Source of the DNA: an uncultured Alphaproteobacteria bacterium
GTDB taxonomy: Bacteria; Pseudomonadota; Alphaproteobacteria; Puniceispirillales; Marisalimonadaceae
Reading direction: 5' to 3'
Assembly: GCA_937142855.1 (NCBI GenBank)
Contig: CAKZQZ010000007.1
Span: forward strand, 1 to 34,955
Length of the DNA stretch: 34,955 nt
Shown here: in pieces, positions 19,207 through 34,955 of the stretch
How the letters are laid out: every line of letters starts with the position of its first letter
Position numbering within the stretch: position 1 is the stretch's first letter
Translations under genes and position numbers: made by a program
Notes under the pieces: generated by a model
What the model was told of the DNA's origin: nothing
Database searches by the model: none
The model's input: only the letters and a program-made list of their open reading frames with translations

Positions 19207-19211
19207 GCTAA

Positions 19212-20654: not shown

Positions 20655-20665
20655 TATGAAATACT

Positions 20666-21760
20666 TTAAATCCTTTGTCCGCTAAGTTTATCAAAATATG
20701 ATATTTTTCCAAGATCAACTACGAAGTCAATTTCAGAACCAACACTTACCTGAGTCTCTGAATTAAAACGAGCAGTAACTTCAGTATTACCAATCTTCGT
20801 AACCACAAAAGTATCTGAACCTGCAGGTTCTATTATGTCTACCTTTGATCTGATTATATGACAATTTTGCTTATTTTTTAGACTGGTTTCAGTAATATTT
20901 TCAGGTCTTATCCCTAATAAAAGATCCTCAGGTAATTTTGATTTATTTTTTTCCTTAATAGAAACAATTGATCCATCTTCCATTTTTATATTTATTTTAT
21001 AATGGTTTTTTTCCTTTATAGTAGTCGCATTAATGAGGTTCATTGGAGGAGATCCCATAAAATCAGCTACAAATATATTTTCTGGATAATTATATATCTC
21101 AGCTGGCGTTCCAATCTGTTGGATAAAACCATCTTTCATAACAACTATTTTTGTAGCCAATGTCATAGCTTCAATTTGGTCATGAGTAACATAAACCATT
21201 GAGGCTCCTAAATCATAATGTAAACGTTTGATCTCAGTTCTCATCTCAACTCTTAATTTTGCATCAAGATTTGATAAAGGTTCATCAAATAAAAAAAGCC
21301 TTGGGTTTCTAACTAACGCTCTTCCCATAGCAACTCTTTGCCTTTGACCACCTGATAATTGACCTGGCTTTCTTTTAAGAAGATTTTCAATTTGTAATTG
21401 CTTAGCTACTTCTTTTAATTTTTCTTTTTGAACATCATCTGGGACACCTCTAACTTTCATTCCAAAAGTTATATTTTTTTCTACAGTCATTGTTGGATAA
21501 AGTGCATAAGATTGAAACACCATAGCAATATCTCTGTCCTTAGGTGCCACATCTGACATATCCTTATTATCTATAAACACATCACCTGAATCTATTATTT
21601 CTAATCCAGCAATACAATTTAATAACGTTGATTTTCCACAACCAGATGGGCCAACAAGAACAAGAAAGTCACCACTTTCAATATCAATATTTATATCATT
21701 AAGTACCGAAATTTTTCCAAAATTTTTATTAACATTTTTAATTTTTAAAATTGAATTCAT
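20666..21760 (-). CDS. Sugar ABC transporter ATPase, MalK/UgpC type
   Basis: 364 residues. Residues ~1-235 are the nucleotide-binding domain: Walker A GPSGCGKST (37-45), Q-loop MVFQSYALYP, signature LSGGQRQRVAMGRAL, Walker B LFLFDEP and the switch His in YVTHDQIEA. Residues ~240-364 form the OB/TOBE regulatory domain (LLGIRPENI, then SEIDFVVDLGKISYFD). It powers the carbohydrate importer encoded by the three preceding genes and equates to GtsD in the Pseudomonas glucose system. AAAGGG precedes the ATG, and only three bases separate it from the upstream permease stop. MalK-type ATPases can be shared between several importers, so it may serve others as well. Confidence 0.94.
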   Translation of the reverse strand: MNSILKIKNVNKNFGKISVLNDINIDIESGDFLVLVGPSGCGKSTLLNCIAGLEIIDSGDVFIDNKDMSDVAPKDRDIAMVFQSYALYPTMTVEKNITFGMKVRGVPDDVQKEKLKEVAKQLQIENLLKRKPGQLSGGQRQRVAMGRALVRNPRLFLFDEPLSNLDAKLRVEMRTEIKRLHYDLGASMVYVTHDQIEAMTLATKIVVMKDGFIQQIGTPAEIYNYPENIFVADFMGSPPMNLINATTIKEKNHYKINIKMEDGSIVSIKEKNKSKLPEDLLLGIRPENITETSLKNKQNCHIIRSKVDIIEPAGSDTFVVTKIGNTEVTARFNSETQVSVGSEIDFVVDLGKISYFDKLSGQRI

Positions 21761-21763
21761 TTT

Positions 21764-22642
21764 CTATCCCTTTACAGAACCAGCAGTTAAACCACGAATG
21801 AAATATTTTCCTGCGAAAACATAAACTATTAAAGTAGGCATTGCAGCTATTATAGCTGCAGCCATATCTACGTTGTATTCTTTGACACCTGTTGTGGAGT
21901 TAACAATGTTATTAAGAGCTACAGTTATTGGTTGTGTCCCTGCTTGGCTAAATGACACTCCAAATAAAAAATCATTCCAAATCTGTGTAAATTGCCAAAT
22001 TACTGTGACTACTATGATTGGCAAAGATAATGGAAGGAAAATAGACCAAAAAATTCTTAAAAATGTAGCCCCATCTATCTTGGCTGCCTTGACTAGCTCA
22101 TTAGGAATATTTACGTAATAATTACGAAAAAAAAGAGTTGTAAAACCAATCCCATAAATTACATGAACAAAAATCAATCCGGTAATACTACCAGCCAAGT
22201 CCATGAGGCCTAAAATTCTAGCCATAGGTAATAAAATTACTTGAAATGGAATAAAACAGCCAAACAACATCAAAGCAAAAATAATGTTTGCACCCCTAAA
22301 TCTCCACTGCGCCACAACATATCCATTCAACGCTCCTATTAATGTAGAGATAAAAACTGCTGGGATTGCAATAAAAATTGAATTCCAGAAAAACGGTCTT
22401 AGACCTTCACATTGTATCCCAGTACATGCAGAAGACCAAGCCGTTCCCCATGCTTCAAAAGTAATATTTCTTGGTAAAGAAACTAAACTTCCAGTCCTAA
22501 TCTCCTCCAAACTTTTTAAAGATGTTGTTATCATGACAAACAATGGAAGGAGATAATATAAAACAAAAACAATTAGTATAAAGTATAATAAAAACCTCAA
22601 TAACAAATTAGTATAATTAGTATTGTTAATATTATTGATCAT
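21764..22642 (-). CDS. gtsC: Sugar ABC transporter permease, MalG/GtsC type
   Basis: 292 residues with six membrane helices. The permease EAA loop that docks on the ATPase reads NELVKAAKIDGATFLRIFW, close to consensus. The N-terminal YLLPLFVMITTSLKSLEEI and the C-terminal AGKYFIRGLTAGSVKG are typical of the MalG half of CUT1 importers. The periplasmic loop after helix 1 is long, with ACTGIQCEGLRPFFWN containing two Cys, a feature I would expect of GtsC-like proteins. The start overlaps the gtsB-like stop by 11 bases and has AAGGA six bases upstream. Placement with a GtsA-like binding protein makes glucose or a close hexose the likely cargo. Confidence 0.9.
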   Translation of the reverse strand: MINNINNTNYTNLLLRFLLYFILIVFVLYYLLPLFVMITTSLKSLEEIRTGSLVSLPRNITFEAWGTAWSSACTGIQCEGLRPFFWNSIFIAIPAVFISTLIGALNGYVVAQWRFRGANIIFALMLFGCFIPFQVILLPMARILGLMDLAGSITGLIFVHVIYGIGFTTLFFRNYYVNIPNELVKAAKIDGATFLRIFWSIFLPLSLPIIVVTVIWQFTQIWNDFLFGVSFSQAGTQPITVALNNIVNSTTGVKEYNVDMAAAIIAAMPTLIVYVFAGKYFIRGLTAGSVKG

Positions 22643-23507
22643 TTTTATTCCTTAACTCTGAATACAAATAAGGAACAACCACAGCAAAAACGACTAACAT
22701 CATTATAATTGCTGAGCTTGCAGCTTGACCAATATCACCTCGTGAAAAAGCCATAGTATACATATAAGTGGCAGGTAGATCAGTGGCATATCCTGGACCT
22801 CCCCCAGTCAGTGCAATTACCAAGTCAAAACTTTTAATGGCTAAATGTGCAAGAACTATAAATGCTGATAGAAAAATAGGCGCCATTGAAGGTATAATTA
22901 TTGCAGTGTAAATTCTTAAAGTTGGTACCCCGTCTACTTGGGCTGCTTTAATTATTTCTTGATCCACAGACCTTAAGCCAGCTAGAAATAAAGCCATAAC
23001 AAAACCTGAGGCTTGCCAAACACCTGCTATAACAACTGTATAAATAGCGAAATCCGGATTGATTACCCAATCAAAAGTAAAATCTTTGAACCCCCAACCT
23101 TTAATTACTGATTCTAAACCTAAGCCTGGGTTCAAAATCCATTTCCAAGCAGTACCTGTAACGATTAACGATAATGCCATAGGATATAAATAAATAGTTC
23201 TTAAAGCACCTTCAATACGAATTTTTTGATCGAGAAAAATTGCAATGACTAACCCTAAAAGCATTGATATTAAAATAAAAAGAAAGCCAAATATAAATAA
23301 ATTATCAATGGCCACTTCCCATCTTGGTGAGTCAAACAACCTTTGATATTGAATAAAACCATCGATGTCATATTTAGGCATCAATCTTGAACGGGTAAAT
23401 GAAATCCACGCTGTCCAAGCAATAAACCCATATACAAATAAAATGATTACAAGAAAAGAAGGTCCCAATACGATTTTGGGCAAATGTTTTTCAAGCCAAT
23501 TAGACAT
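22632..23507 (-). CDS. gtsB: Sugar ABC transporter permease, MalF/GtsB type
   Basis: 291 residues with six membrane helices. The EAA loop reads DQEIIKAAQVDGVPTLRIYTAI. The IALTGGGPGYATDLPATYMY segment near the C-terminus is the typical CUT1 MalF-half signature. I chose the ATG at 23507 (MSNWLEKHLPK), which has GGA seven bases upstream. A longer frame from a TTG at 23534 would begin inside the stem-loop described separately and add nine residues unlike any family member. The gene follows the binding-protein gene by 56 bases, the largest gap in this run, and overlaps the next permease gene by 11 bases. Confidence 0.9.
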   Translation of the reverse strand: MSNWLEKHLPKIVLGPSFLVIILFVYGFIAWTAWISFTRSRLMPKYDIDGFIQYQRLFDSPRWEVAIDNLFIFGFLFILISMLLGLVIAIFLDQKIRIEGALRTIYLYPMALSLIVTGTAWKWILNPGLGLESVIKGWGFKDFTFDWVINPDFAIYTVVIAGVWQASGFVMALFLAGLRSVDQEIIKAAQVDGVPTLRIYTAIIIPSMAPIFLSAFIVLAHLAIKSFDLVIALTGGGPGYATDLPATYMYTMAFSRGDIGQAASSAIIMMLVVFAVVVPYLYSELRNKNDQ

Positions 23508-23518
23508 GATAAAATCCA

Positions 23519-23554
23519 AAATAACTGTCCTCAAAAATTTGAGAACAGTTATTT
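23519..23554 (-). terminator. Stem-loop between binding-protein and permease genes
   Basis: Arms 23519-23535 and 23538-23554 are complementary over 16 of 17 positions, the only mismatch being 23529 (C) against 23544 (A). In the RNA the core is ACTGTTCTCAAA facing TTTGAGGACAGT. It starts ten bases after the gtsA stop and ends before the gtsB Shine-Dalgarno sequence. No long T-run follows, so partial termination or protection of the upstream mRNA from 3' exonucleases is more likely than full termination. Such hairpins after periplasmic binding-protein genes are known to give them a higher expression than the membrane genes. Confidence 0.72.
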
Positions 23555-23563
23555 AATTTTTTC

Positions 23564-24811
23564 TTATTTACTATTATCTATTGCCTTTACAAGCATTGCA
23601 ACAGCGTCTTTTGAAGACATATCTGAATTAAAATGAGCTGTTACAGTATCTGTTATAGCACCAGCTTGTGCACCGCGAAGAGCCATGCCATGCGCATAAC
23701 TAGGCAGTAATGTACCACCAACTGAACTAGCGTTCATATCAGCAGCAGAAACATGAGCACATTGATCAAACTCATTCAAGGCCACATCAGTTCTTGCTGG
23801 TATAGATCCTTTATTAAGGTTAAAAACTTTTTGAAAGTTTTTACCAACAATCAATTTGGCTAATAACTTTTGACCATCTTGTCTATCTGAACCCTTAACT
23901 TTAAACATTGCGAAGCTATCTACATTATACAAAAAACCTTCTCCTGGGGTAGAAGCACATAGAAAATCTTTGCCAGGTACTTTTCCAGCTGCTAAAAATT
24001 CACCTTTTGCCCAATCACCCATGATTTGAAAAGCAGCTTCACCATTCATAACCATAGCAGTGGCTAAATTCCAGTCTCTACCTGAAAAGTTTTTATCAAC
24101 GAAGCCTCTCATGGTTCTCATTTGGTCAAATACTTTAACCATTGTATCAGACTGTAATGCTTTCTTATCTAACTTTACAAATGCATCATGGAAAAAATTA
24201 GCTCCTCCAATTCCAAGTGCAACTGCTTCAAATACAGTAGCATCTTGCCATGCCTGACCACCGTGAGCTAATGGAATTATACCCTTAGCCTGCAAAGCTT
24301 TTGCAGTAGCATTAAATTCATCCCATGTTTTTGGCATACCAAATCCATTTGATTTAAGAACAGAGGCATTTGCCCATATCCAGTCAATTCTGTGAACATT
24401 CACAGGAGCCGCACACCACTTGCCTTCACATTTCATATGACCAGCAATTGATGCAGGCAGAACACTTGACCAATTATTTTTTTTAGCAACATCACTTATA
24501 TCAGCCAATGCACCTTCTTCATACCACTCTTGTATAGATGGACCCTTGAGTTGAACTGCAGCAGGAGCGTTGCCTGATAAAACTCTTGCTCTTAACGCAG
24601 TCATGGCGGCATCACCACCACCACCAGCAACAGGCATATCTGTCCATGAACCACCATTTTCAGAAAATTCTTTTTGAAGAACAGCAACAGATTTAGCTTC
24701 TCCTCCAGAAGTCCACCAATGAAGAACCTCTGCTTTAGGTCCAGCATATGATATTGATGTTGATAAAGTTAATGTAGTTGCAAGTGCTGCAACAGTTATT
24801 TTATTAAACAT
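23564..24811 (-). CDS. gtsA: Sugar-binding protein of ABC importer, GtsA-like (glucose/mannose type)
   Basis: 415 residues with a signal peptide (residues ~1-23, ending SISYA-GPKAE), so periplasmic. The mature start EVLHWWTSGGEAK, then MPVAGGGGDAAMTALRARVLSGN, QLKGPSIQEWYEEGAL and APVNVHRIDWIW match the pattern I recall of the Pseudomonas glucose-binding protein GtsA. This is family-1 (CUT1) extracellular solute-binding. Glucose is the likely ligand, also because zwf, pgl and edd follow in the same run. GGGGGA lies six bases before the ATG, an unusual G-run Shine-Dalgarno sequence. Upstream is the divergent promoter region shared with a two-component system. Transporter specificity for mannose or other hexoses is not excluded. 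Confidence 0.92.
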   Translation of the reverse strand: MFNKITVAALATTLTLSTSISYAGPKAEVLHWWTSGGEAKSVAVLQKEFSENGGSWTDMPVAGGGGDAAMTALRARVLSGNAPAAVQLKGPSIQEWYEEGALADISDVAKKNNWSSVLPASIAGHMKCEGKWCAAPVNVHRIDWIWANASVLKSNGFGMPKTWDEFNATAKALQAKGIIPLAHGGQAWQDATVFEAVALGIGGANFFHDAFVKLDKKALQSDTMVKVFDQMRTMRGFVDKNFSGRDWNLATAMVMNGEAAFQIMGDWAKGEFLAAGKVPGKDFLCASTPGEGFLYNVDSFAMFKVKGSDRQDGQKLLAKLIVGKNFQKVFNLNKGSIPARTDVALNEFDQCAHVSAADMNASSVGGTLLPSYAHGMALRGAQAGAITDTVTAHFNSDMSSKDAVAMLVKAIDNSK

Positions 24812-24922
24812 TTATTTCCCCCATATGTATTAAAATTGTCAACTATATTATTCTTTTAGTACTTTGTTTAAAAGGTAGAAATTGTTTTAATCATCCATAA
24901 AAACCTATTTTTTTTGTATATT

Positions 24923-24938
24923 TGTTACATTGTGTTAC
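24923..24938 (+). promoter_or_regulatory. Direct repeat, candidate response-regulator operator
   Basis: TGTTAC occurs at 24923-24928 and again at 24933-24938, ten bases centre to centre, which is one helical turn. OmpR/PhoB-type regulators bind tandem direct repeats with 10-11-base spacing, and such a regulator is encoded 33 bases downstream. The same repeat is about 110 bases upstream of the divergent gtsA-like start. Two copies of a 6-mer in this 159-base region could be chance. Confidence 0.45.
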
Positions 24939-24970
24939 TAAAGAACGTGAAACTGATTTGAGTATTTACA

Positions 24971-25711
24971 GTGCCGATTCAAAAAATTTTAGTAGTTGAA
25001 GACGATTTAGACATGCAGGAAATGATAGTATCTTTTTTGCAAAAAAATGGCTATATGGTCTCAGCCGCAAAAAATGCGATAGAACTTTCAAAACAAATCA
25101 AATCAAATAAAACAGATCTAATTTTACTAGATGTTATGCTTGGTGATGATAACGGTATAAATTTATGTAAACAAATACGTAAAGAAAATAATATTCCTAT
25201 AATAATAGTTTCTGCTTTGTCTGCTGATCAAGACCGTTTGCAAGGTTTTGAAGTAGGAGCAGACGACTACATTAGCAAACCATTTAATCCACAAATATTA
25301 CTTGCTAAAATAAAAGCTATTCTTAAAAGGGGGACAAAGATAGCGTCGCTAGCATATAGAAGAAATACAAAAAGTTATCATTTTGATGAATGGATTTATG
25401 ATGGAAAAAAAGATATCATTATATCTCCTTCAGGCTTTCAAGTTTCTTTATCTCAAAAGGAAACTAAAATATTAAAAGTTTTTTTAGCTAACAGCCATAT
25501 AGCTCTATCAAGAGAAGAAATAGCTAATGCGATAGATGATACAAGGGAACAAGAAAAAGCTCTTGATAATTTGGAGAGCAGAGCAATTGACGTACTTGTT
25601 GGAAGACTAAGAACTAAAATTGAAAAAGATACAAAAAAACCTTCGCTTATTAAAACAGAAAGAGGTGTTGGGTATATATTTTCATGTGAAGTTATAACAA
25701 AAGATGAATAA
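24971..25711 (+). CDS. OmpR-family response regulator, GltR-like
   Basis: 246 residues. The receiver domain (1-~120) has the acidic pair D11-D12 in VVEDDLD, the phosphoacceptor D54 in LLDVML, S81 at the usual Thr/Ser site and K103 in SKPFNP. The second half (~130-240) is an OmpR-type winged-helix DNA-binding domain, with LSQKETKILKVF, DVLVGRLRTKIE and IKTERGVGYIF. The start is GTG with only a weak upstream signal. It overlaps the kinase gene by eight bases and lies divergent to the sugar-uptake run, the arrangement expected of the local regulator, similar to GltR in Pseudomonas which controls the gts glucose operon. That equivalence rests on context. Confidence 0.9.
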   Translation: MPIQKILVVEDDLDMQEMIVSFLQKNGYMVSAAKNAIELSKQIKSNKTDLILLDVMLGDDNGINLCKQIRKENNIPIIIVSALSADQDRLQGFEVGADDYISKPFNPQILLAKIKAILKRGTKIASLAYRRNTKSYHFDEWIYDGKKDIIISPSGFQVSLSQKETKILKVFLANSHIALSREEIANAIDDTREQEKALDNLESRAIDVLVGRLRTKIEKDTKKPSLIKTERGVGYIFSCEVITKDE

Positions 25712-27161
25712 AATATTTAAACTTAAGTCAATTATAACTCAAACTTACTTTATAGTTTTTGTTTCTTTTCTAATGGGAGTTATTATTACTTTTATTTGGA
25801 TTTCTTCTGAAAATAAATGGGAAAAGTTTCTGAGAAACTCATATTCCTCAGGAATATCATTGTATAACAATATTAAGTTTCAAAATAAAATAGACAACAA
25901 AATAAAAATCAAAAAAATTGATGTAAACGATGAAGTAATCTCTAAGGAACAATTAGATTATCATTCTGAAATACCTCTTCCTTATAAATTAACAACTCTT
26001 TCAATCTCTGATTATGGTCAAAAATCAGAAATACAAGAAAAGATAATTTTACACCTTTTATCCAAAAAATTAAGGTATCCAATTTCTAAAATTGAACCTT
26101 TTAATAACTTAGCAGTCGAACAACAATTGGGCAAAGTAATTGAATTAGTGGCAAACTACTGCACAAACCCTATAATATTTATAAAAATCAACCAAGGCTT
26201 TTGGTATCGTATTGATGGCAACAATGTTTGGGGATGCAAGACAGCACCTAACGATAACCGAATGTTATCAATAATACTGTCAGTTATTACTTTGTTTTCA
26301 ATATTTTTTTTAATAAGAAATAATGAGTTAAAATTTAATAATTTTATATTAAATTTAAAAAATAACCTAAAGTCTAAAAAATATAATATGGAACAAGTCA
26401 AGGGACCTTCCGAACTTATAGAGATTAAAAACACATTAGACGGGTTTTTAAATACCCAAAAAGAGAAATTGGAAAAACGATTGATGGTATTATCTTCAAT
26501 TAGCCATGATATTGGAACACCTGCTACAAAGTTAAAATTAAGGACATCATTAATTGAAGATAAAAACTTAAAGGAAAAGCTTGAAACAGACATAGATAAT
26601 ATGATTGAAATGATGAATGGCGTACTATCATATACGCGTTCAGAAATGGATTTAGAAGAAGAAATTGAAATTTCATATATTTCTCTAATAGATTCAATAG
26701 TATTTGACTATCAAGATTTAGGGAAAAAAGTTAGTTTTATTAAGCCTGAAGAGAAAAAAATTGGTTTTGCTTCTACTATTTTTACAGGCAATAAAAAAGC
26801 TCGAACCTTACAAGTTAATAAAAATCATCATCTACTTGTGATTGCAAAACCACTCTCACTTCAAAGGGCTATTACAAATTTAATTGAAAATGCTCTTAAA
26901 TATGGAAGAACTGCTACTTTGTCTTTAGAGTTTACATCACAAAATATTACCTTAGTTGTAGAAGATGAAGGTAAGAACGCTTCAGAAGAATTATTAGAAA
27001 CTTTAAAAAAACCTTTTATTAGAGGACAAAATACAGGCTTAACAAAAGGAACTGGACTTGGTTTAACAATAGTACAAACAATAGCTGAACAACATGGAGG
27101 CTACTTGAGTTTTGAAAAATCAAAAGTAGGAATACGTGCTAAATTTATGATAAAAAGGTAA
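25704..27161 (+). CDS. Sensor histidine kinase, GtrS-like
   Basis: 485 residues. Two membrane segments (~13-34 and ~187-204) enclose a ~150-residue periplasmic sensor, followed by a linker, an H-box with H268 in ISSISHDIGTPATKL, and an ATPase domain with N-box NLIENALKYG (392-401), DEGK (421-424) and GTGLGL (449-454). The H-box differs from the usual HDLRTP by having Gly for Arg. The sensor contains two cysteines (C153, C178). The protein is membrane-bound and would phosphorylate the response regulator encoded upstream. In Pseudomonas the corresponding GtrS senses sugar acids such as 2-ketogluconate or 6-phosphogluconate; the ligand here is unknown. Confidence 0.9.
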   Translation: MNKIFKLKSIITQTYFIVFVSFLMGVIITFIWISSENKWEKFLRNSYSSGISLYNNIKFQNKIDNKIKIKKIDVNDEVISKEQLDYHSEIPLPYKLTTLSISDYGQKSEIQEKIILHLLSKKLRYPISKIEPFNNLAVEQQLGKVIELVANYCTNPIIFIKINQGFWYRIDGNNVWGCKTAPNDNRMLSIILSVITLFSIFFLIRNNELKFNNFILNLKNNLKSKKYNMEQVKGPSELIEIKNTLDGFLNTQKEKLEKRLMVLSSISHDIGTPATKLKLRTSLIEDKNLKEKLETDIDNMIEMMNGVLSYTRSEMDLEEEIEISYISLIDSIVFDYQDLGKKVSFIKPEEKKIGFASTIFTGNKKARTLQVNKNHHLLVIAKPLSLQRAITNLIENALKYGRTATLSLEFTSQNITLVVEDEGKNASEELLETLKKPFIRGQNTGLTKGTGLGLTIVQTIAEQHGGYLSFEKSKVGIRAKFMIKR

Positions 27162-27231
27162 GTAATATTTTATTTTTTAATTTTATTCCTTTAGTCAATA
27201 AATATTTAAAACAACCTTAATGGAGAGATAA

Positions 27232-28137
27232 ATGGGAGAAAAAGTAGCTTTTATTGGGTTAGGAGCAATGGGAGGTCCTATGGCTCAAAATATTGTAAAA
27301 AAGGGCACAAACCTGTCTGTATATGATATTGAAAAATCAAAGATGGATCCATTGATCGATTTAGGTTCAACACCAGGGAAATCAATTAAAGACACAATTC
27401 AAAACGCTGAGGTAATTATAACAATGTTACCATCTACTGACAATGTAAGGTCAGTCATTTGTAGTGCTGAAGGCGTTTTATCTTTTGCAAAACCTGGTTC
27501 AATTATTCTAGATATGAGCACTATAGCCCCTACTGGAACAGATGAAGTTTATGATTTGTGCAGACAAAAAGAAGTGGATTTCATAGACGCTCCAGTTGGA
27601 AGATTGGTAAGTCACGCAATATCAGGAGACTCACTTTTTATGGTAGGTTGTGATAATGATGAAGCTTTTAAAAAAGTTGAGCCTTTATTAAATGCCATGG
27701 GTACAACTATTATAAGATGTGGAAAAGTAGGTTCAGGAATAAGAGCAAAAGTTGTAAATAATTTTCAAATCTTAAGTATCGCACAAATTACTGCAGAAGC
27801 TCTAACACTAGCAAAAAAAATTGGATTAGATCTCAATACTTTTAAAGAAGTAAATGCAGGAACAACAGCTAATAATGGACAATTTCATATAAACTTTATG
27901 TCCAAAGTTCTGCAAAATGATATTGAACCAGGATTTACCATCGACCTAGCCCATAAAGATATGGGGTTAGCTATAGAAACGGCAAACAGTTTTAGAGTTG
28001 GTTTACCAGTTGGATCTTCTGTTCAAGCAGTTTATGGGCAAGCTAGATCAGGTAAGTTTGCCAAAAAAGATTTTAGCGCTCTTTTAGATTATGCTTGTGA
28101 AATTGCTGAAGTTAGCCCGCCAAGAATTAAAAGTTGA
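27232..28137 (+). CDS. Beta-hydroxyacid dehydrogenase, YihU/sulfolactaldehyde reductase-like
   Basis: 301 residues. Residues 7-19 hold the NAD(P)-binding FIGLGAMGGPMAQ motif. The substrate motif is DAPVGR (119-124), differing from the DAPVSGG of 3-hydroxyisobutyrate and tartronate semialdehyde reductases, and matching the PVGR I recall for YihU, where Arg binds the sulfonate. The catalytic Lys is K173 in GIRAKVVNN, and the C-terminal IDLAHKDMG and VYGQAR segments also resemble YihU. The likely reaction is interconversion of 3-sulfolactaldehyde and 2,3-dihydroxypropanesulfonate, though other hydroxyacids are possible. GGAGAG is four bases before the ATG. It follows the kinase gene by 70 bases and converges on the SDR-Gfo-ComE-ComD operon. 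Confidence 0.82.
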   Translation: MGEKVAFIGLGAMGGPMAQNIVKKGTNLSVYDIEKSKMDPLIDLGSTPGKSIKDTIQNAEVIITMLPSTDNVRSVICSAEGVLSFAKPGSIILDMSTIAPTGTDEVYDLCRQKEVDFIDAPVGRLVSHAISGDSLFMVGCDNDEAFKKVEPLLNAMGTTIIRCGKVGSGIRAKVVNNFQILSIAQITAEALTLAKKIGLDLNTFKEVNAGTTANNGQFHINFMSKVLQNDIEPGFTIDLAHKDMGLAIETANSFRVGLPVGSSVQAVYGQARSGKFAKKDFSALLDYACEIAEVSPPRIKS

Positions 28138-28153
28138 GGTGAAAATTTCAACT
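28132..28153. terminator. Small dyad spanning two convergent stop codons
   Basis: AGTTGA (28132-28137) pairs with TCAACT (28148-28153) around a 10-base loop. The left arm contains the TGA of the dehydrogenase gene, and the right arm overlaps the TAG of the convergent short-chain dehydrogenase gene. There is no T-run on either side. It could serve as a weak bidirectional terminator, or be chance. Confidence 0.25.
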
Positions 28154-28925
28154 AGACTACAGGGCACAAACCTCCATCTAAATTAATTGCAGTTCCAGTA
28201 ATATAAGCACTCCTATGGGAAGATAAAAAAGCTACTAAGTTTGCATAATCTATTTCTTCTCCAACCTTCCCCATTGGAACTTTTTTTGACATTTCATTAT
28301 AAAGATCTTCTACACTGCCATTACCAGATCTACGATCCCATTGAGCACTTTTGATCAAACCAATGCAAATGGTATTAACTCTAATATTATCCTTAGCATA
28401 TTGATTAGCTAATGATTTAGTTAAATTAATACCTGCAGCTCTGGTTACTGTCGTAGGGAGTGAACCAGCATTGGGAGCTTTACCGCCACCAATTGTAGCA
28501 TTTATAATCACTCCTCCTGAACTAGTTTTCATATGAGGAATAACTAAGCGACACATTCTAATTGTAGACAATAATTTTAAATTTATATCATCTTCCCAGT
28601 TTTTATCAGTTACATCTTCAAACAAAGCTGCAGCAGAGGCGCCAGCATTATTAACTAAAATATCTACTTTCTTAAACTTAGATATAGTCTGTTCAACTAA
28701 ACTTTTACAATCTTCTGCCTTACTAACATCAGCTTTAATTCCTAAAACATCATTCTTAGTTTTTTCTGAAATTATTTTTGCTTTTTCTTTTAAATAATCT
28801 TCTCTTCTACCACAAATAACAACCTTGGCACCTTCTGAAGCAAGAAGTTCTGCAGAAGCATAGCCTAATCCGTCACTACCACCCGTTATAAGGACAACTT
28901 TATTTTTTAAACCTAGATCAAACAT
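28152..28925 (-). CDS. Short-chain dehydrogenase/reductase with altered catalytic residues
   Basis: 257 residues with an SDR Rossmann fold: TGGSDGLG at 14-21, NNAG at 92-95 and the C-terminal ITGTAINLDGG. The classical YxxxK catalytic pair is missing: aligned on the ...LTKSLA helix, the Lys site is R162 and the Tyr site is T158; the preceding Ser site is not an obvious Ser either. Such variants exist as a distinct SDR group annotated as 3-oxoacyl reductases, and may be active by another mechanism or may not be reductases. A Shine-Dalgarno AGGAG is six bases upstream. The gene is the last in the ComD-ComE-Gfo operon, 34 bases after the Gfo gene. Confidence 0.85.
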   Translation of the reverse strand: MFDLGLKNKVVLITGGSDGLGYASAELLASEGAKVVICGRREDYLKEKAKIISEKTKNDVLGIKADVSKAEDCKSLVEQTISKFKKVDILVNNAGASAAALFEDVTDKNWEDDINLKLLSTIRMCRLVIPHMKTSSGGVIINATIGGGKAPNAGSLPTTVTRAAGINLTKSLANQYAKDNIRVNTICIGLIKSAQWDRRSGNGSVEDLYNEMSKKVPMGKVGEEIDYANLVAFLSSHRSAYITGTAINLDGGLCPVV

Positions 28926-28959
28926 CTTCTACTCCTAATTAATAATTGATTAAATTTAG

Positions 28960-30003
28960 TTAAATCGAAATGGATTTTTTATTAACAGCTGAATCTAATA
29001 TAGATAAAGCAACTTTTAAAGTAAGTTCTGCGTCTTCTGAACTAGTAACTGGTTCTACTTTCCTATTTATTACATCTTTAAAATGATTGATTTGAGAAAT
29101 ATAAGGATCAATATTTGAAACGGTAAAATCTTGAGAATATATTTCATCCATCCAATTTTCACCATTATTTTTATATTTCCATATCTTTAGATTTGGAAAT
29201 TCTAGAGATCCTTTAGTGCCTACAATCCTTAGATTATTTTCAATTAAATTTGGTAAATGTATATTTTCTCCCGTAGCCGTTTCCCAAGACCATGGAGATG
29301 TACCAGTGTCAGTAATTAGGAAATTTCCTAATATACCATTGTTAAATTTTAGGTTTGCGGTTACAATATCTTCTTTATTAAAATTATTTACAATATTTGA
29401 AGAAAATGCAGAAACTTCACCTATATCCCCAAAAATAAATCTTAAATAATCAATATCGTGAATAAGGTTTGTGATAACTGGACCCGCAGTCACCTCCTTT
29501 CTCCAACCTGGTATAAAATAATCTTTGTCCTTTCGTAATGCCCACAAGCCAGATAAACCTACAACTTTTCCTAACTCTTCATTTTTAACAATTTCCTTAG
29601 TCTTTAATACTAATGGATAAAACCTTCTTTGATGACCAACCAAAACTTTACATTTGTTCTTAATTGCAGTTTTTGTAATCTCTTGTGCCTCGATTGTAGT
29701 TGCTGCAATTGGCTTTTCTATTAAAATATCTAAGCCAAGCTCCATGGCCGAGATGGCATTTTCACAATGACTAATAGTTGGAGTTGAAATAATAACACCA
29801 TCAACTCGGTTATTTTGTAACAAGTGATTTAAATTTTTAAATAATGGAATATTTTTATCTATACAAAACTTTTGTGCTGGCTCACTTAAATCTACAATTC
29901 CAACTAAATTAATGTCATCTATTTGGTCAATAGCCATTAAATGACGTTTACCAATTGTGCCAATACCAATGATTCCAATGTTAATTATTTTCTTATTAGA
30001 CAT
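28960..30003 (-). CDS. Gfo/Idh/MocA family oxidoreductase
   Basis: 347 residues. The N-terminal Rossmann domain has GIIGIGTIGKRHLMAI at ~12-27, the DGVIISTPTISH loop, and EKPIA near residue 96. The C-terminal alpha/beta domain carries NLIHDIDYLRFIFG, the segment where the family has its catalytic Asp-His pair. Family members oxidise or reduce sugars, inositols and sugar acids with NAD(P); nothing in the sequence points to one substrate. The ATG overlaps the ComE-like stop by one base (TAATG on the minus strand), showing tight translational coupling to the decarboxylase genes, so its substrate is probably a precursor or product of the decarboxylated oxo acid. Confidence 0.88.
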   Translation of the reverse strand: MSNKKIINIGIIGIGTIGKRHLMAIDQIDDINLVGIVDLSEPAQKFCIDKNIPLFKNLNHLLQNNRVDGVIISTPTISHCENAISAMELGLDILIEKPIAATTIEAQEITKTAIKNKCKVLVGHQRRFYPLVLKTKEIVKNEELGKVVGLSGLWALRKDKDYFIPGWRKEVTAGPVITNLIHDIDYLRFIFGDIGEVSAFSSNIVNNFNKEDIVTANLKFNNGILGNFLITDTGTSPWSWETATGENIHLPNLIENNLRIVGTKGSLEFPNLKIWKYKNNGENWMDEIYSQDFTVSNIDPYISQINHFKDVINRKVEPVTSSEDAELTLKVALSILDSAVNKKSISI

Positions 30004-30572
30004 TATGAGTTCATCGAACTCATAAATCTATTTATAGACACTGAACCATCAAAGGAATGCGGAAATACTAATGGTGTAGCTTTGGGTTTACACTTAACAA
30101 CAATAAAAGAAGGACCTTCCTCTTCGTATACAGTTTTCATTATCTTCTCATAACCTTCTTCACTCTTAACCGTATATGAGTTATTTATTCCTGAACCCTT
30201 GGCAATTAATTCTAAATCGGTTTTTCCTGCAGTGGCAGTAGGTTGACTTCCAGTTTCTACATATGACTCGTTATCTAGAACAATCATAGTAAGATTTGAT
30301 ACAGGGTGATTGGCTATAGTAGATATCGAACCAAGGCTCATTAACGTATCGCCATCACCAGTGAATAACAATATTCTATAATTAGGTTTTGCTTTAGCTA
30401 GACCTAAAGCAAATGGAATAGATTGCCCCATAGCACCTATGAAACCAAAATTTCCTACATTATCTCCTGCAGACATTAGGTCCCAGGTAGATGTACCAAT
30501 ACCACTTACAACCCTTAAGTTATCTTTTCTATTCTTTAAAATTTTTTGAACAAACGGTCTTCTTTCAATCAT
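30003..30572 (-). CDS. comE: ThDP-dependent oxo-acid decarboxylase, beta subunit (ComE-like)
   Basis: 189 residues of the C-terminal (pyrophosphate-binding) half of a ThDP decarboxylase. The ThDP/Mg2+ motif starts at GDGDTLM (72-78) and ends near LDNESY (D100, N101), followed by ETGSQPTAT, which is typical of sulfopyruvate and phosphonopyruvate decarboxylases. FGFIGAMGQSIPFALGLA precedes it. Together with the ComD-like subunit it should decarboxylate sulfopyruvate to sulfoacetaldehyde, or a phosphono analogue or another 2-oxo acid; sequence does not distinguish these. It is six bases after the comD-like stop and shares one base with the Gfo start. Low similarity to characterised enzymes in the N-terminal region is expected. 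Confidence 0.82.
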   Translation of the reverse strand: MIERRPFVQKILKNRKDNLRVVSGIGTSTWDLMSAGDNVGNFGFIGAMGQSIPFALGLAKAKPNYRILLFTGDGDTLMSLGSISTIANHPVSNLTMIVLDNESYVETGSQPTATAGKTDLELIAKGSGINNSYTVKSEEGYEKIMKTVYEEEGPSFIVVKCKPKATPLVFPHSFDGSVSINRFMSSMNS

Positions 30573-30578
30573 AATATT

Positions 30579-31118
30579 TTATCCATTTTTGAACTGTTTT
30601 GCCCCAATCATTTTTTGGGATAATAAAACTGCAGCTGAACGGTTAGTATTAAATGCAAATCTAGCGGCCGCATCTACTGTAGATCCAACTTCATCCTTAT
30701 AATCTGCTCTAAAAACTTTAATGTCCATTGCTTCTAAAACTTTGGGCGTCCCTAAACCCATTGGTACTTGCCAAGGAACAAATTCTCCCCACTCACCTCT
30801 CATAGAAACTAAGGTCAAAAAAGGTATACGGCATATATTAGGTAACGCGAGTGCATTTATACAATTTCCAACACCACTAGATTGCATCAATAGAGCACTT
30901 CTTTTTCCACCTGCATACGCACCGCAAGATAGACCAACTCCATCTTGCTCAGTTGTCAAAGTAACCACCTCAATCTCGTTATCTTTTTCACATAAGTTTA
31001 TAAGAGGAGTATGACCAGCATCTGGCACATGAGAAACCATTGTAATATTCAATTCTTTAAAAACTGCGTAAATATCATTACGCCAATCTTTAGTAACTTC
31101 AGCCATAACTTTATCCAT
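30579..31118 (-). CDS. comD: ThDP-dependent oxo-acid decarboxylase, alpha subunit (ComD-like)
   Basis: 179 residues forming the N-terminal pyrimidine-binding half of a ThDP decarboxylase. The activating Glu is E57 in LTTEQDGVGLSCGAYAGG. The KRSALLMQSSGVGNCINAL stretch, about residues 72-90, and VPWQVPMGLGTPKVLEAMDI match the sulfopyruvate decarboxylase alpha subunit family, where these two domains are separate proteins. It is the first gene of the minus-strand operon. The ATG at 31118 has no obvious Shine-Dalgarno sequence; an ATG four codons downstream (31106) is possible. Its divergent neighbour is a short-chain dehydrogenase gene with 125 bases between them. The symbol is a family label and does not prove a role in coenzyme M synthesis. 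Confidence 0.82.
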   Translation of the reverse strand: MDKVMAEVTKDWRNDIYAVFKELNITMVSHVPDAGHTPLINLCEKDNEIEVVTLTTEQDGVGLSCGAYAGGKRSALLMQSSGVGNCINALALPNICRIPFLTLVSMRGEWGEFVPWQVPMGLGTPKVLEAMDIKVFRADYKDEVGSTVDAAARFAFNTNRSAAVLLSQKMIGAKQFKNG

Positions 31119-31195
31119 TTATTAATAATAATTTACATGTTAAATAGTAAATTAAATATTTCAAGTTTATACATTAAATAAGCTTATATATAATT

Positions 31196-31216
31196 TACAA
31201 GATACTATTGTATAAT
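31196..31216 (+). promoter_or_regulatory. Candidate -10 element and operator dyad in divergent region
   Basis: TATAAT at 31211-31216 is a perfect -10 match, 28 bases upstream of the SDR ATG, but no good -35 is present. TACAA (31196-31200) and TTGTA (31208-31212) form a dyad with a 7-base spacer overlapping it. The palindrome ATAAGCTTAT lies at 31178-31187. These are consistent with a regulated divergent promoter, without being strong evidence. Confidence 0.3.
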
Positions 31217-31243
31217 TTCGTAACTAATTAAGGATTTCATCAA

Positions 31244-31990
31244 ATGAATCATAATAAAGATAAAGTAGCCATTGTTACTGGAGCAGCCAAGAACATCGGC
31301 AGAGCCACTTGTGAGGGCTTAGCAAAATTAGGTTATAACGTTTTAGTTCATGCAAACTCAGACCAAAAAGGCGCAGATGAAACTATAAAAATAGTTAAAG
31401 AAACTGGAATACTGACAAGTAGAGTTATTGGAGACCTAACCAAGCCTGAAACTTCTAAAGAGCTTGTTTTTGAGGCTTCGAAATTAGGTAAAGTATCAGT
31501 TCTTGTAAACAACGCATCTCAAAGAGAATTTAATAAATTTGAAGACATGACATTTGATGATTGGCGGTTTGTAATGTCAATCAATCTAGATTCATTATTT
31601 CATACGTGTAAAGCTGCATTGCCAGAGATGAAAAAGAATAGTTGGGGTAGAATTATCAATTTAGGTGGTTTATCTGGTCACATTAGCGCTATTGGCAGGG
31701 CTCATGTTATAACTTCTAAGCTAGCTGTGGTTGGGTTTACCAGGGCTTTGGCTATGGAATATGCAGAAACAGGAATTACTATTAACACTGTAGTTCCAGG
31801 ATTGATTGATACAGTAAGAGGAGCATCAGCTGGAAGCAGTCTAGTACACCCCTCTCACTCCAACCCACCAGTAGGAAGAAAAGGATATCCTGAAGAAGTT
31901 GCTACCATGATATCTAATCTATGTGGTCCAAATTCCGATTTTATTACAGGGCAGACAATACATGTAAATGGTGGTAGTTATTTTTCATAA
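31244..31990 (+). CDS. Short-chain dehydrogenase/reductase lacking the catalytic Tyr and Ser
   Basis: 248 residues of FabG-like SDR fold, with TGAAKNIG (12-19), LVNNAS (87-92) and the C-terminal ITGQTIHVNGG. Aligned on the conserved helix, Lys is kept (K159) but the Tyr site is V155, preceded by H154, and the Ser site is G142 (in NLGGLSG). The AHVITSK stretch confirms this directly in the DNA. An adjacent S144 or H154 might substitute. Otherwise it looks like an intact enzyme, ending at the normal length. AAGGA is nine bases before the ATG. It is divergent from comD and followed, 12 bases on, by a DMT transporter gene. Confidence 0.87.
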   Translation: MNHNKDKVAIVTGAAKNIGRATCEGLAKLGYNVLVHANSDQKGADETIKIVKETGILTSRVIGDLTKPETSKELVFEASKLGKVSVLVNNASQREFNKFEDMTFDDWRFVMSINLDSLFHTCKAALPEMKKNSWGRIINLGGLSGHISAIGRAHVITSKLAVVGFTRALAMEYAETGITINTVVPGLIDTVRGASAGSSLVHPSHSNPPVGRKGYPEEVATMISNLCGPNSDFITGQTIHVNGGSYFS

Positions 31991-32002
31991 TACCAAAACT
32001 AT

Positions 32003-32893
32003 ATGACAAACAAATCAATTGATGGAATTGCTGCAACTTTTCTAATAGTTTTTTCAATCTTACTTGGCCTTAACCAAGTTCTTGTAAAATTAGTAAACGT
32101 CGGCATGCATCCAATCTTTCAAGTTGCCCTTAGATCAACTTTAGCAATCATTCCCATTTTAATTTATTGCTACTTCACAAAGAAAAAAATAAATTTTTTT
32201 GATGGTAGTTTGTTGCCAGGTTTAATTGCCGGAGTTCTTTTTGCAGTAGAGTTTATTTTACTATTTACAGCTCTTGATTATTCTACAGTGACTCGCGTTT
32301 CATTAATATTTTATACTATGCCAGTATGGTTAACGATTGCCGCTCATTTTCTCATTAAGGATGACCGTCTTAACCTTAATAAATCTATTGGTTTAATTAT
32401 AGCTTTTGTAGGATTAGTTTTTGCAGTTTATCAACCCATAACTAACTATGATATTAGACAGTTTTACGGAGATTTGTTTTCTTTACTTGCCAGTTTCTGC
32501 TGGGCCATTATAGCTATAATGCTTAAAACAACTCGATTAACAAGATCCATTCCAGAGACGCAACTTTTATATCAACTTATTGTTTCCGGCATTATTTTAT
32601 TACCTGTTTCATTTATGCTTGATGATTACATAAGAGAGTTGGACGCACAACTAACACTCATTTTTTCTTTTCAGGTTATTGTAATAATGTGTTTAGGTTT
32701 TATAGGCTGGTTATGGGTAATGTCCAAGTATTCCGCTAGCAGCACCAGCTCTTTTGCTTTTTTAACTCCAATATCAGGTGTTATGTTTGGCTGGCTGATA
32801 ATGAATGACGTCATTAATGAACAAATATTTATTTCATTATTTCTTACATGTCTTGGAATTTATATAATTAACAAAAAAAATAATCAAAATTGA
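32003..32893 (+). CDS. EamA/DMT family transporter
   Basis: 296 residues with ten predicted membrane helices and two EamA repeats; the first contains FILLFTALDYSTVTRVSLIFYTMPVWLTIAAHF with the polar dyad residues, and the second ends with YSASSTSSFAFLTPISGVMFGWLIM. It is a substrate-unknown drug/metabolite-type carrier. The gap to the SDR gene is only 12 bases, without a Shine-Dalgarno sequence, so the two are likely co-expressed and this would carry the substrate or product of the nearby enzymes. Its end faces the helicase gene with 74 bases between; I saw no clear terminator there. Confidence 0.87.
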   Translation: MTNKSIDGIAATFLIVFSILLGLNQVLVKLVNVGMHPIFQVALRSTLAIIPILIYCYFTKKKINFFDGSLLPGLIAGVLFAVEFILLFTALDYSTVTRVSLIFYTMPVWLTIAAHFLIKDDRLNLNKSIGLIIAFVGLVFAVYQPITNYDIRQFYGDLFSLLASFCWAIIAIMLKTTRLTRSIPETQLLYQLIVSGIILLPVSFMLDDYIRELDAQLTLIFSFQVIVIMCLGFIGWLWVMSKYSASSTSSFAFLTPISGVMFGWLIMNDVINEQIFISLFLTCLGIYIINKKNNQN

Positions 32894-32967
32894 CGTAGGT
32901 AAAAACTTAATTTTTAAAAACTTTGTCCTTTTACTTAATCTTTTTGCTGAATACTTTACCAGACCTA

Positions 32968-34821
32968 CTAAATTATTTTTTGTTTTTTTCTTCTGCTCAA
33001 AGACTTTTTCTTTTTACTCTTAGTATCAAAAGATACATTATTTTTATTTTCTGCATTATCTGTAGACGGTGTTTGTTTTGTTCTTCTTTTCTCTGAATTT
33101 CTCCACCTATCTGATTTTCTTTTACCTTGGAAGCTCTTTGAACCTTCTTCTCTTGAAGTTTTGAAAACAGACCTATCATCTACTTTTTTAAACCTATTCT
33201 TATTATCTTTACTTGAAGAAACAAACGCAGGAGGTTTTGTAAGAATTTTGACCATTATATGACGTTCTATGGGTTTTTTATCTTTTGAAAAAGCCTTTAA
33301 TGTGTCTGATTTTTTTTCAGAGATTTCAACGAGTGTAACTTTTGGCTGAATTTTAATTGAACCAATATCTCTCTTAGATAAGTTACCAGCTTTACATAAC
33401 ATCGCTACTAACCACCTAGGCTCTGCAGTTTCTTCTTTACCAACTGATAGCTCAAACCAAATACTATCTTCAAAACCGTTTTTAGATGAACTCAGGTTCT
33501 TTTTATCATTTGGATCTCGCAAGTCCTCCGGTGCAGACAAATCCTTGCCAATTAACCTATAATAAGCAACTGCTAGTTGCTCTATAGTATTTTTTGAGGT
33601 CAAATCGTCAACAAAAGCTTTTTCATCTTCTGTGATTGGATCTTCTAGAATTTTATTTTCAACAATTCTTTTTCTGTCTTCCTTTAGAATTTCATCTCTC
33701 GAAGGAGGTGATAACCAAGTTGGTTTGATATTTGCCTGTGCAAAAAGTCGTTCAGCTATTCTTGATCGGTTATGCGGTACTAAAACAGCGCAAACACCTT
33801 TCCTTCCCGCTCTACCCGTACGTCCACTTCGATGAAGTAAAGTGTCAGAAGTTCTTGGGATATCAGCATGAATAACTAAATCAAGATTAGGTAGATCTAA
33901 ACCTCTAGCAGCTACATCAGTGGCAACACAAACTCTTGCCTTAGATGTTCTCATTGCTTGCAAAGCCATATTTCTTTCATTTTGGCTTAACTCTCCAGAC
34001 AAGGCTACGGCAGATATACCTCTGTTAGTCAATCGACTAGTCATGTGATTAACAGCTACCCTAGTAGCGCAAAAAACAATAGCGTTAGTAGCTTCATAAT
34101 ATCTTAGAGTATTGATGATAGCATTCTCTTGATCACTCATGATTATCTTGTAAGCCTTATAATCTATGTCTACATGTTGTGAGTTAGATTGCCCAACCGA
34201 TATTCTAATAGCTTCTTTTTGATAACGTTTGGCTAAATTAGCTATACCTTTCGACACAGTTGCAGAAAACATTAAAGTTTGTCTTTCTACAGGAGTTGTG
34301 TCTAAAATGGCTTCAAGGTCTTCCCTGAAACCCATATCCAACATTTCATCCGCTTCATCTAATACAACAGTCTTAATATTTGATACCTTGAAATAATTTC
34401 TTTCTATATGATCTCTTAATCTTCCAGGGGTCCCTACAACAATATTAGGTTTTGTTTCTAAGTTTCTTCTTTCAGCTCTTATATCCATTCCACCCACGCA
34501 AGAAACTATTTTTGCATCTAAAGAATCTAAAACCCATGTTAATTCGTTTTTAACTTGCAAAGCCAATTCCCTTGTAGGGACAATAATAAGAGCTTCAGGT
34601 GATTGAGGAGTTTTAAATACTTTGTTTCCAGCCAAAAGATTTTCTACGATTGCAAATCCAAATGCTATAGTTTTACCAGAACCTGTTTGTGCAGATACCA
34701 ACAAGTCTAACCCAGAATAACTTTCTTTACTCACTTCTTCTTGGACAGGAGTTAATTTTTCGTACCCCCTATCTTTCATTGCTTTTACAATAGGTGCAGG
34801 TATTCCAGACGCTTCTAACAT
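32968..34821 (-). CDS. deaD: DEAD-box ATP-dependent RNA helicase, DeaD/CsdA type
   Basis: 617 residues. All helicase motifs are present: Q-motif TPVQEE (24-29), Walker A AQTGSGKT (44-51), PTRELA (82-87), DEAD (155-158), SAT (186-188) and HRSGRTGRAGRKG near residue 331. Beyond the two RecA-like domains is a DbpA-like RNA-binding module (WLVAMLCKAGNLSKRDIGSI, ~460-480), the mark of DeaD/CsdA, and a lysine/arginine-rich tail from ~540 to the end for RNA contact. DeaD helps ribosome assembly and mRNA unwinding at low temperature. The gene is complete. The ATG lacks a clear Shine-Dalgarno sequence; the 134 bases upstream to the window edge hold only AT-rich sequence where I see no gene. Confidence 0.93.
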   Translation of the reverse strand: MLEASGIPAPIVKAMKDRGYEKLTPVQEEVSKESYSGLDLLVSAQTGSGKTIAFGFAIVENLLAGNKVFKTPQSPEALIIVPTRELALQVKNELTWVLDSLDAKIVSCVGGMDIRAERRNLETKPNIVVGTPGRLRDHIERNYFKVSNIKTVVLDEADEMLDMGFREDLEAILDTTPVERQTLMFSATVSKGIANLAKRYQKEAIRISVGQSNSQHVDIDYKAYKIIMSDQENAIINTLRYYEATNAIVFCATRVAVNHMTSRLTNRGISAVALSGELSQNERNMALQAMRTSKARVCVATDVAARGLDLPNLDLVIHADIPRTSDTLLHRSGRTGRAGRKGVCAVLVPHNRSRIAERLFAQANIKPTWLSPPSRDEILKEDRKRIVENKILEDPITEDEKAFVDDLTSKNTIEQLAVAYYRLIGKDLSAPEDLRDPNDKKNLSSSKNGFEDSIWFELSVGKEETAEPRWLVAMLCKAGNLSKRDIGSIKIQPKVTLVEISEKKSDTLKAFSKDKKPIERHIMVKILTKPPAFVSSSKDNKNRFKKVDDRSVFKTSREEGSKSFQGKRKSDRWRNSEKRRTKQTPSTDNAENKNNVSFDTKSKKKKSLSRRKKQKII

Positions 34822-34955
34822 TGTTATCTTTCAGAATTCACAAGAGTTTTATTATTTAAAGAATTTAGAATATTTTTTTCATATACTAAATTAAAATATA
34901 CTAGAATGATGTTTTAGTCTTCAATATCAATAAAGTAAAGCATTTGAAATCTTAA

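Follow-up and report, generated by a model that had tools for sequence, protein, structure and literature searches.

A conserved gene block of SAR116 bacteria, built around a split thiamine diphosphate decarboxylase apparently distinct from ComDE, may serve a carboxylic 2-oxo acid

A cluster of seven genes in an uncultured alphaproteobacterium, built around two small proteins that resemble the subunits of the sulfopyruvate decarboxylase ComDE, raises the question of whether this organism processes a sulfonate or some other 2-oxo acid. The cluster occupies positions 27232-32893 of contig CAKZQZ010000007.1 (GenBank assembly GCA_937142855.1), whose 34,955 nucleotides are hereafter called the window; it is a whole contig (G000:C7), and the genome to which it belongs measures 2.32 Mb and is rated 100% complete. 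Because relatives of its ComD protein at 90-95% identity come mostly from the SAR116 cluster, we take the host to be a SAR116 alphaproteobacterium. An initial annotation, made from the sequence alone, had raised as conceivable that ComD/ComE convert sulfopyruvate to sulfoacetaldehyde, with reduction to isethionate and export to follow. From the comparative analysis presented here, we find a sulfonate substrate for ComD/ComE unlikely. We give an even chance to a different reading, in which sequence relationships suggest that the block encodes a brief pathway acting on a carboxylic 2-oxo acid, with decarboxylation by ComD/ComE to a semialdehyde that a YihU-like enzyme would interconvert with a hydroxy acid. 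No paper on this block was found among the literature matches listed.

The block is real, conserved and coherent in SAR116, and reflects more than chance linkage. All seven open reading frames (ORFs) that the initial annotation had linked are open at their coordinates, and it had also named the protein types correctly: a beta-hydroxyacid dehydrogenase, two short-chain dehydrogenase/reductase (SDR) proteins, a Gfo/Idh/MocA oxidoreductase (hereafter GFO), the PYR and PP (diphosphate-binding) subunits of a thiamine diphosphate (ThDP) enzyme, and an EamA-family membrane protein (hereafter DMT). As a check on its proposal it had suggested a search for the block in related genomes, and in that search the block proves to be conserved. 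Among 55 ComD loci found in genome contigs, there are 46 whose script-called ORFs include ComD or ComE at 60% identity or more. Six of these 46 (L070-L072, L074, L077 and L081) belong to other bacteria and lack the block. The other 40 are SAR116-type loci, 36 of which hold all five core genes, encoding SDR2, ComD, ComE, SDR1 and the YihU-like dehydrogenase; in the remaining four (L035, L044, L069 and L086) the contig ends inside the block. This core stays intact under three differing left flanks, which consist of a histidine kinase gene (in some loci with a sugar transporter), of zwf-pgl-edd, or of a gene related to the one at window position 15514. Two loci (L033 and L040) have an additional frame of 367-368 amino acids between SDR1 and the YihU-like gene. 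Within the genus, ComD is detected at E<1e-100 in 29 of 37 genomes; those without it are mostly incomplete, although one (G013) is rated 90% complete. The five core genes show dN/dS values of 0.01-0.07 against L032, L033 and L046 (rough ratios, given that dS mostly exceeds 1), and they are under purifying selection.

At the centre of the block, comD (30579-31118, minus strand; PF02776) and comE (30003-30572, minus strand; PF02775) are predicted to encode the PYR and PP subunits of a split decarboxylase. These two domains, together with the ThDP motif GDGDTLMSL...LDN (GDG...DN) read in ComE, place the pair in the ThDP-dependent decarboxylase superfamily; ComD carries the motifs VPDAGH ... MQSSGVGN ... 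MRGEWGEF.PWQ. That part of the initial annotation in which a split ThDP decarboxylase acts on a 2-oxo acid is retained as a prediction, but its sulfonate part is not supported. Neither subunit reaches the cut-off of the corresponding hidden Markov model (HMM) for sulfopyruvate decarboxylase. ComD yields 134.6 bits against a cut-off of 147.95 (TIGR03845, alpha subunit), and ComE yields 123.2 bits against 221.5 (TIGR03846, beta subunit). The best model for ComE is PRK06163, a 'hypothetical protein', whose cut-off likewise exceeds its score. In contrast, both cut-offs are exceeded by ComDE pairs from f4, a sister family within SAR116 (154.7 and 231.0 bits for L127; 150.0 and 238.2 for L132), and the alpha cut-off by the alpha subunit of another alphaproteobacterium (L135, 167.4 bits, with alpha only scored). 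Other members of the group to which the window's pair belongs fall below the cut-offs as well (117.7 and 114.6 bits for L145, a second copy in the same genome; 106.8 and 125.1 for L123; 114.2 for the alpha subunit of L107).

A tree of 88 concatenated ComD and ComE rows gives the same division. Labels (A or B) were set by the better-scoring query, and the rows comprise 77 from group A, to which the window's pair belongs, and 11 true ComDE; 89 loci yielded 87 pairs, two genes are present twice (L002/L145 and L070/L087), and one locus, L113, has a mixed label, its ComE being nearer to B. The 11 true ComDE rows form one clade, apart from group A, with support of 0.998. Near-fixed changes from true ComDE to group A, taken from columns that are at least 90% uniform within each group and differ between the two, occur in ComD (C33D, K34A, Q35G, L36H, I77L, N80S, T81S, A82G, I83V, V85N, Y106M, C116W, A121G, A168Q and Y174K) and in ComE (N24G, I25L, E31D and S106E). 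Thus, the residues VPCKQL, QNTAI and SYRGE of true ComDE are not kept in group A, with VPCK replaced by VPDA. Because of how the labels were set, such differences arise partly by construction; the HMM cut-offs are independent of the labels.

From these comparisons, group A, and with it the window's ComD/ComE, appears to be an uncharacterised family of split ThDP decarboxylases, related to but distinct from both ComDE and phosphonopyruvate decarboxylase. With ComDE, known from methanogens and from the degradation of dihydroxypropanesulfonate (DHPS) in marine Alphaproteobacteria, group A shares two small subunits, PYR then PP, encoded by adjacent genes, and the ThDP motif; it differs in forming a separate clade, in scoring below both cut-offs, and in its near-fixed changes at VPCK, NTAI, Y106 and C116. 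The closest solved sequences are those of the phosphonopyruvate decarboxylase RhiEF (PDB 9iz3/9iz4; 60 and 59 bits), whose PYR and PP subunits are likewise split, with E=2e-15 for ComD against RhiE (9iz3_A) and E=5e-15 for ComE against RhiF (9iz3_B); this likeness is nevertheless distant. A second group A comD-comE pair, 45% identical, is present in the window's own genome (G000:C29, 85647-86162 onward; L002, L145). By eye, its neighbours read as a formate dehydrogenase and a MarR/multidrug-efflux operon, and L140 and L141 have a similar arrangement.

The gene at 27232-28137 (plus strand; PF03446 and PF14833) encodes a YihU-like protein of 301 amino acids with the two domains of beta-hydroxyacid dehydrogenases (NAD_binding_2, 147.3 bits; NAD_binding_11, 86 bits), and its catalytic Lys aligns with that of YihU. 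The initial annotation described a YihU-like dehydrogenase with PVGR at its substrate-binding site. Both the family and the PVGR motif hold, with DAPVGR present in all 42 aligned sequences, window included, but an identity as sulfolactaldehyde reductase is not supported, the protein scoring 271.4 bits against the NF012005 cut-off of 348. Two ComDE-linked relatives of this PVGR subfamily also remain below that cut-off (298.6 and 307.8 bits). The closest solved relative is nonetheless the sulfolactaldehyde reductase YihU itself (6sm7, 218 bits versus 171 for the next structure), and the PVGR Arg is kept in the alignment, although Ile takes the position of Ser178. Arg123 and Ser178 are residues that we take to bind the sulfonate in YihU. 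Among 20 homologues from other genomes, P(V/I)GR is present in 19 and a Ser at the Ser178 position in none. No sulfoglycolysis gene was noticed in the window, where no search aimed at such genes was made. The three best models for the protein describe reductases or dehydrogenases of semialdehydes. Members of the same family that resemble 3-hydroxyisobutyrate dehydrogenase or tartronate-semialdehyde reductase share its domains, but 3q3c and 3obb have PVSG in place of PVGR.

The two SDR-fold proteins of the core lack the classical Tyr-x-x-x-Lys signature, a feature that the initial annotation did not mention. In SDR1 (28152-28925, minus strand; PF13561/PF00106), Thr replaces the catalytic Tyr and Arg the Lys in all 41 aligned sequences, window included, and the same Thr and Arg recur in each of 29 further homologues at 42-62% identity. 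In the FabG-like SDR2 (31244-31990, plus strand; PF13561), Val replaces Tyr and Lys is kept (HVxxSK) in all 37 aligned sequences, window included, and none of 29 homologues at 40-50% identity has Tyr at this position. The closest PDB relative of SDR1, 6jh7, which is presumably AerF of aeruginosin biosynthesis, likewise has no Tyr at the catalytic position of the alignment. SDRs encoded near group A ComDE of other bacteria mostly have the normal Tyr. Since both genes are under purifying selection, SDR1 and SDR2 are probably functional proteins, though not classical Tyr-dependent oxidoreductases.

The plasmid-borne relatives of these enzymes provide a further view of the likely substrate. For group A ComDE, 12 plasmid regions with 9-kb flanks were picked by hand, one per genus, among the matches listed; 63 records matched in all, and 36 of those listed reach 45% identity or more. 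An aldehyde dehydrogenase is encoded in 11 of the 12 regions, although the nearer one in L150 is a fragment; the region without one (L149) has a PVGR dehydrogenase beside ComDE instead, and L158 has both. CoA-transferase and acyl-CoA dehydrogenase genes each occur in eight regions, MaoC dehydratase in seven and CoA ester lyase in six. A PVGR dehydrogenase adjoins group A ComDE in L083 and L115 (46-47% identity) as well as in L149 and L158. For the PVGR dehydrogenase, six plasmid regions with 10-kb flanks, including two from Novosphingobium and two from Sphingobium, were likewise picked by hand, from 33 records (20 listed); the enzymes are 50-59% identical to that of the window, and all have P(V/I)GR. 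Every one of these six regions includes (semi)aldehyde dehydrogenase, acyl-CoA dehydrogenase and enoyl-CoA hydratase genes, and five include a CoA-transferase gene, the sixth having an unannotated gap. A sulfotransferase is listed in two of the six. Among the genes annotated in the 12 regions of group A and the six of PVGR type, no taurine-transport, Hps or Suy gene was seen. The combination of aldehyde dehydrogenase, CoA-transferase, acyl-CoA dehydrogenase, MaoC dehydratase and CoA ester lyase is a recurrent module, as would be expected for a dicarboxylic acid formed from a semialdehyde. The placement of ComDE and PVGR relatives amid genes for carboxylic acids favours a carboxylic rather than a sulfonate substrate.

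The association between the two enzymes extends across Alphaproteobacteria. In a sample of 384 other alphaproteobacterial genomes, group A ComD (E<1e-37) occurs in 84, and in 27 of the 30 with a PVGR enzyme (E<=1e-50; Fisher p 9e-17, ignoring phylogeny). Among the 16 families with a PVGR enzyme, 14 include a genome that has both. All 11 genomes with an SDR1 orthologue (57-62% identity) also carry group A ComD (Fisher p 3e-8, ignoring phylogeny), and seven of them carry the PVGR enzyme as well. Where SDR1 and PVGR genes lie unlinked in other Alphaproteobacteria, their surroundings are too mixed to be informative, a picture partly marred by spurious long ORFs in GC-rich DNA. The ORF-based view of neighbourhoods also dropped 19 of 75 loci as lacking ComD, of which 18 were regained by tblastn for the tree (L079 was not submitted).

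Several kinds of neighbour recur among the relatives. In the nearest ComDE relatives outside SAR116 (ComD 72-82% identical), an ArsI/CadI-type VOC gene lies behind comE (L072, 9170-9613; L071, 9193-9630; L081, 1017-1394; and L070, 9211-9402, which is the same contig as L087, 3-194). Both full copies tested exceed the family cut-off, and none of 61 SAR116 genomes has a match above it. Some PVGR dehydrogenases stand beside a full-length ThDP enzyme of 529-535 amino acids (L172, 1770-3359; L166; L174; L178, 6199-7806), which is a second kind of ThDP partner for these dehydrogenases; the one at L172 is acetolactate-synthase-like, below cut-offs, and a gamma-glutamyltransferase-like gene is also found at L166, L172 and L174. 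Genes for PhyH-type dioxygenases recur near ComDE (L071, L072, L082, L085 and L112), near the PVGR gene (L169 and L175) and near SDR1 (L218/L247 and L240).

On the reading that we prefer at even chance, the substrate of ComD/ComE would be a 2-oxo acid, most likely one with a second acidic group, and its decarboxylation would yield a semialdehyde, as their family and partners suggest. The YihU-like enzyme would interconvert this semialdehyde and the matching hydroxy acid, and its PVGR Arg would bind the second acidic group. Such an aldehyde may in many bacteria be oxidised by an aldehyde dehydrogenase, for which the PVGR enzyme would substitute in SAR116. SDR1 and SDR2 might catalyse an adjoining step, before or after, that needs no Tyr acid/base, such as conjugate hydride transfer or some non-redox chemistry. 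GFO would be an accessory enzyme, perhaps for oxidation of a polyol or sugar-acid precursor, and DMT an accessory exporter or importer. We infer each of these roles, and likewise that a decarboxylation takes place, that it precedes the dehydrogenase step and that the substrate is a carboxylate.

A number of observations weigh against this proposal. The best NCBIfam model for ComD is still sulfopyruvate decarboxylase alpha, and for the YihU-like protein it is NF012005, even though both scores lie below the cut-offs. Among the group A plasmid regions, L154 includes a gene for cysteine dioxygenase. None of the six PVGR plasmid regions encodes ComDE, and the SAR116 block lacks the acyl-CoA genes present in the plasmid clusters. 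Of the 27 sampled genomes that have both genes, one (G153) has the PVGR gene adjoining ComD, and SDR1 lies on another contig or hundreds of kilobases from ComD in all 11 genomes with an orthologue. The SAR116 block therefore gathers genes that elsewhere mostly just co-occur, which weakens the operon argument outside SAR116. The ArsI/CadI-type gene behind comE in the nearest relatives also suggests that substrates may vary.

The wider genomic setting bears directly on sulfonates and phosphonates. Xsc exceeds its cut-off in none of the 37 genomes of the genus, window's genome included, but three other families of the same order have it above the cut-off in 20 of their 24 genomes. The block holds no DHPS, sulfolactate or Xsc gene; the rest of the genome was not searched gene by gene for DHPS and sulfolactate genes. 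A search for SuyB with PF04295, a domain too broad for this purpose, returned two frames of 515 and 524 amino acids in the window's genome that resemble the longer altronate/galactarate-dehydratase type, and mostly frames of 393-438 amino acids in family f2. On a Sulfitobacter plasmid (L159), a ComDE annotated as sulfopyruvate decarboxylase lies amid genes for a TRAP transporter, histidinol dehydrogenase, an SDR, alcohol dehydrogenase, a stress protein and an alpha-hydroxy-acid oxidase. This cluster looks like a DHPS-degradation operon and agrees with the pathway from DHPS via sulfopyruvate that PMC11382572 describes. Sulfonate monooxygenases (ssuD/msmA) are restricted to SAR116 subclade I according to the accessible part of PMC12262181, in whose main text, to the extent available, the words sulfopyruvate, isethionate, taurine, DHPS and sulfolactate are absent. 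The main text of PMC8547437, also on SAR116, lacks the words sulfopyruvate, isethionate, taurine and DHPS.

The sulfonate route of the initial annotation, in which sulfopyruvate becomes sulfoacetaldehyde by ComDE and then isethionate by the YihU-like enzyme or an SDR, with export by DMT, is consistent with the top-ranking but sub-threshold models of ComD and the dehydrogenase, with the kept PVGR Arg, with the L154 cysteine dioxygenase, and with a path from sulfolactate through sulfopyruvate to sulfoacetaldehyde that exists according to the available part of PMC11382572. However, ComD/ComE fall short of both cut-offs that true ComDE exceed, VPCK and other near-fixed ComDE residues are lost, Ile stands where YihU has Ser178, the genus lacks Xsc above the cut-off, and the plasmid neighbours encode (semi)aldehyde dehydrogenases and acyl-CoA enzymes without any taurine-transport, Hps or Suy gene seen. 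The export of isethionate finds no support, with DMT lying outside the core. On the HMM cut-offs, the tree, Xsc and the neighbourhoods, we reject this route as the best reading and judge it very improbable. We judge as even less probable that ComD/ComE make phosphonoacetaldehyde from phosphonopyruvate, followed by its reduction to 2-hydroxyethylphosphonate. Homology to the split RhiEF speaks for this route, but the best score for phosphoenolpyruvate (PEP) mutase in the window's genome is 112 bits against a cut-off of 319.55, and on this ground the route was rejected. PEP mutase exceeds the cut-off in just two of 61 genomes, where it stands beside a separate, weakly ComD-like frame, and the phosphonopyruvate decarboxylase model TIGR03297, built on fused chains, gives 72.6 and 116 bits against 312.5. 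In the two genomes concerned, both of the genus (G001:C3, 106826-108192; G023:C2, 211829-213065), the adjoining ComD-like frame is long and probably encodes phosphonopyruvate decarboxylase in fused form. The ArsI/CadI-type gene behind comE, and nothing else, might hint that the first substrates of group A were organoarsenic analogues of sulfopyruvate or phosphonopyruvate, an origin that strikes us as barely conceivable.

Two further readings were weighed. L-Threonate dehydrogenase, a member of the same family as the PVGR enzyme, makes a 2-oxo acid, and its model also matches the YihU-like protein, at 145.8 bits against a cut-off of 350. In the same manner, the PVGR enzyme could act first, oxidising a hydroxy acid to an oxo acid or semialdehyde with ComD/ComE downstream, and the (semi)aldehyde dehydrogenase near the PVGR enzyme in plasmid clusters suggests such an oxidation. 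This order seems unlikely to us, though a serious contender, given that the SAR116 block has no aldehyde dehydrogenase and that the three best models describe enzymes acting on semialdehydes. It is less probable again, and we consider it a rather poor prospect, that the substrate is unusual, for example an acid that is aromatic or long-chained or a carboxylate on a heterocycle, with the Tyr-less SDRs and GFO modifying a ring. Here the precedent is LumK/LumL of riboflavin breakdown, two subunits that together decarboxylate a quinoxaline carboxylate with ThDP (PMC12746152), which shows that split enzymes of this kind can handle quite unlike acids. The likeness lies in the split, two-subunit organisation, and LumK/LumL differ in their aromatic ring substrate and in their operon. 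The absence of Tyr from the usual position in 6jh7 also fits this idea, but no ring-cleavage gene was seen in the block, and the plasmid relatives lie amid acyl-CoA and aldehyde-dehydrogenase genes.

The remaining features of the locus are accessory or flank the core. GFO (28960-30003, minus strand; 347 amino acids; PF01408) overlaps comE by one base at a TAATG junction, as initially annotated, and has the highest dN/dS in the block (0.12-0.14, again a rough value with dS mostly above 1). DMT (32003-32893, plus strand; PF00892) is a DMT/EamA-family membrane transporter. Each is present in 30 of the 36 complete loci; the block has neither in L063-L068, which are the SAR116 copies that diverge most. 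The divergent intergenic region between comD and SDR2 (31119-31243) is a candidate promoter/operator region; an alignment of 37 such regions, window included, reveals partly conserved boxes and no clear shared operator. No Rfam match above the gathering score was found in 24000-34955 that would indicate a riboswitch or other RNA element. Immediately to the left of the block (16770-27161) are edd-, pgl- and zwf-related frames, together with those of a sugar ABC transporter and of a two-component system; in most SAR116 relatives, zwf-pgl-edd frames directly adjoin the YihU-like gene. By eye, window positions 1-1539 appear to encode a fused protein of sugar-phosphate-isomerase and hydroxyphenylpyruvate-dioxygenase type, as in quinate catabolism.

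The plasmid relatives of group A are annotated mostly as 'thiamine pyrophosphate-binding protein' and in some cases as 'phosphonopyruvate decarboxylase', and the ComE partner of two is called 'aldehyde dehydrogenase'. If group A were named sulfopyruvate decarboxylase, a marine genus whose genomes gave no Xsc above the cut-off would be credited with sulfonate metabolism. Tentatively, and with somewhat less than even confidence, we suggest that the block may instead represent a catabolic pathway, so far undescribed, in a clade that is abundant in the surface ocean; it would combine a new split-ThDP family, its own subfamily of semialdehyde dehydrogenases and two Tyr-less SDRs that carry out non-classical chemistry.

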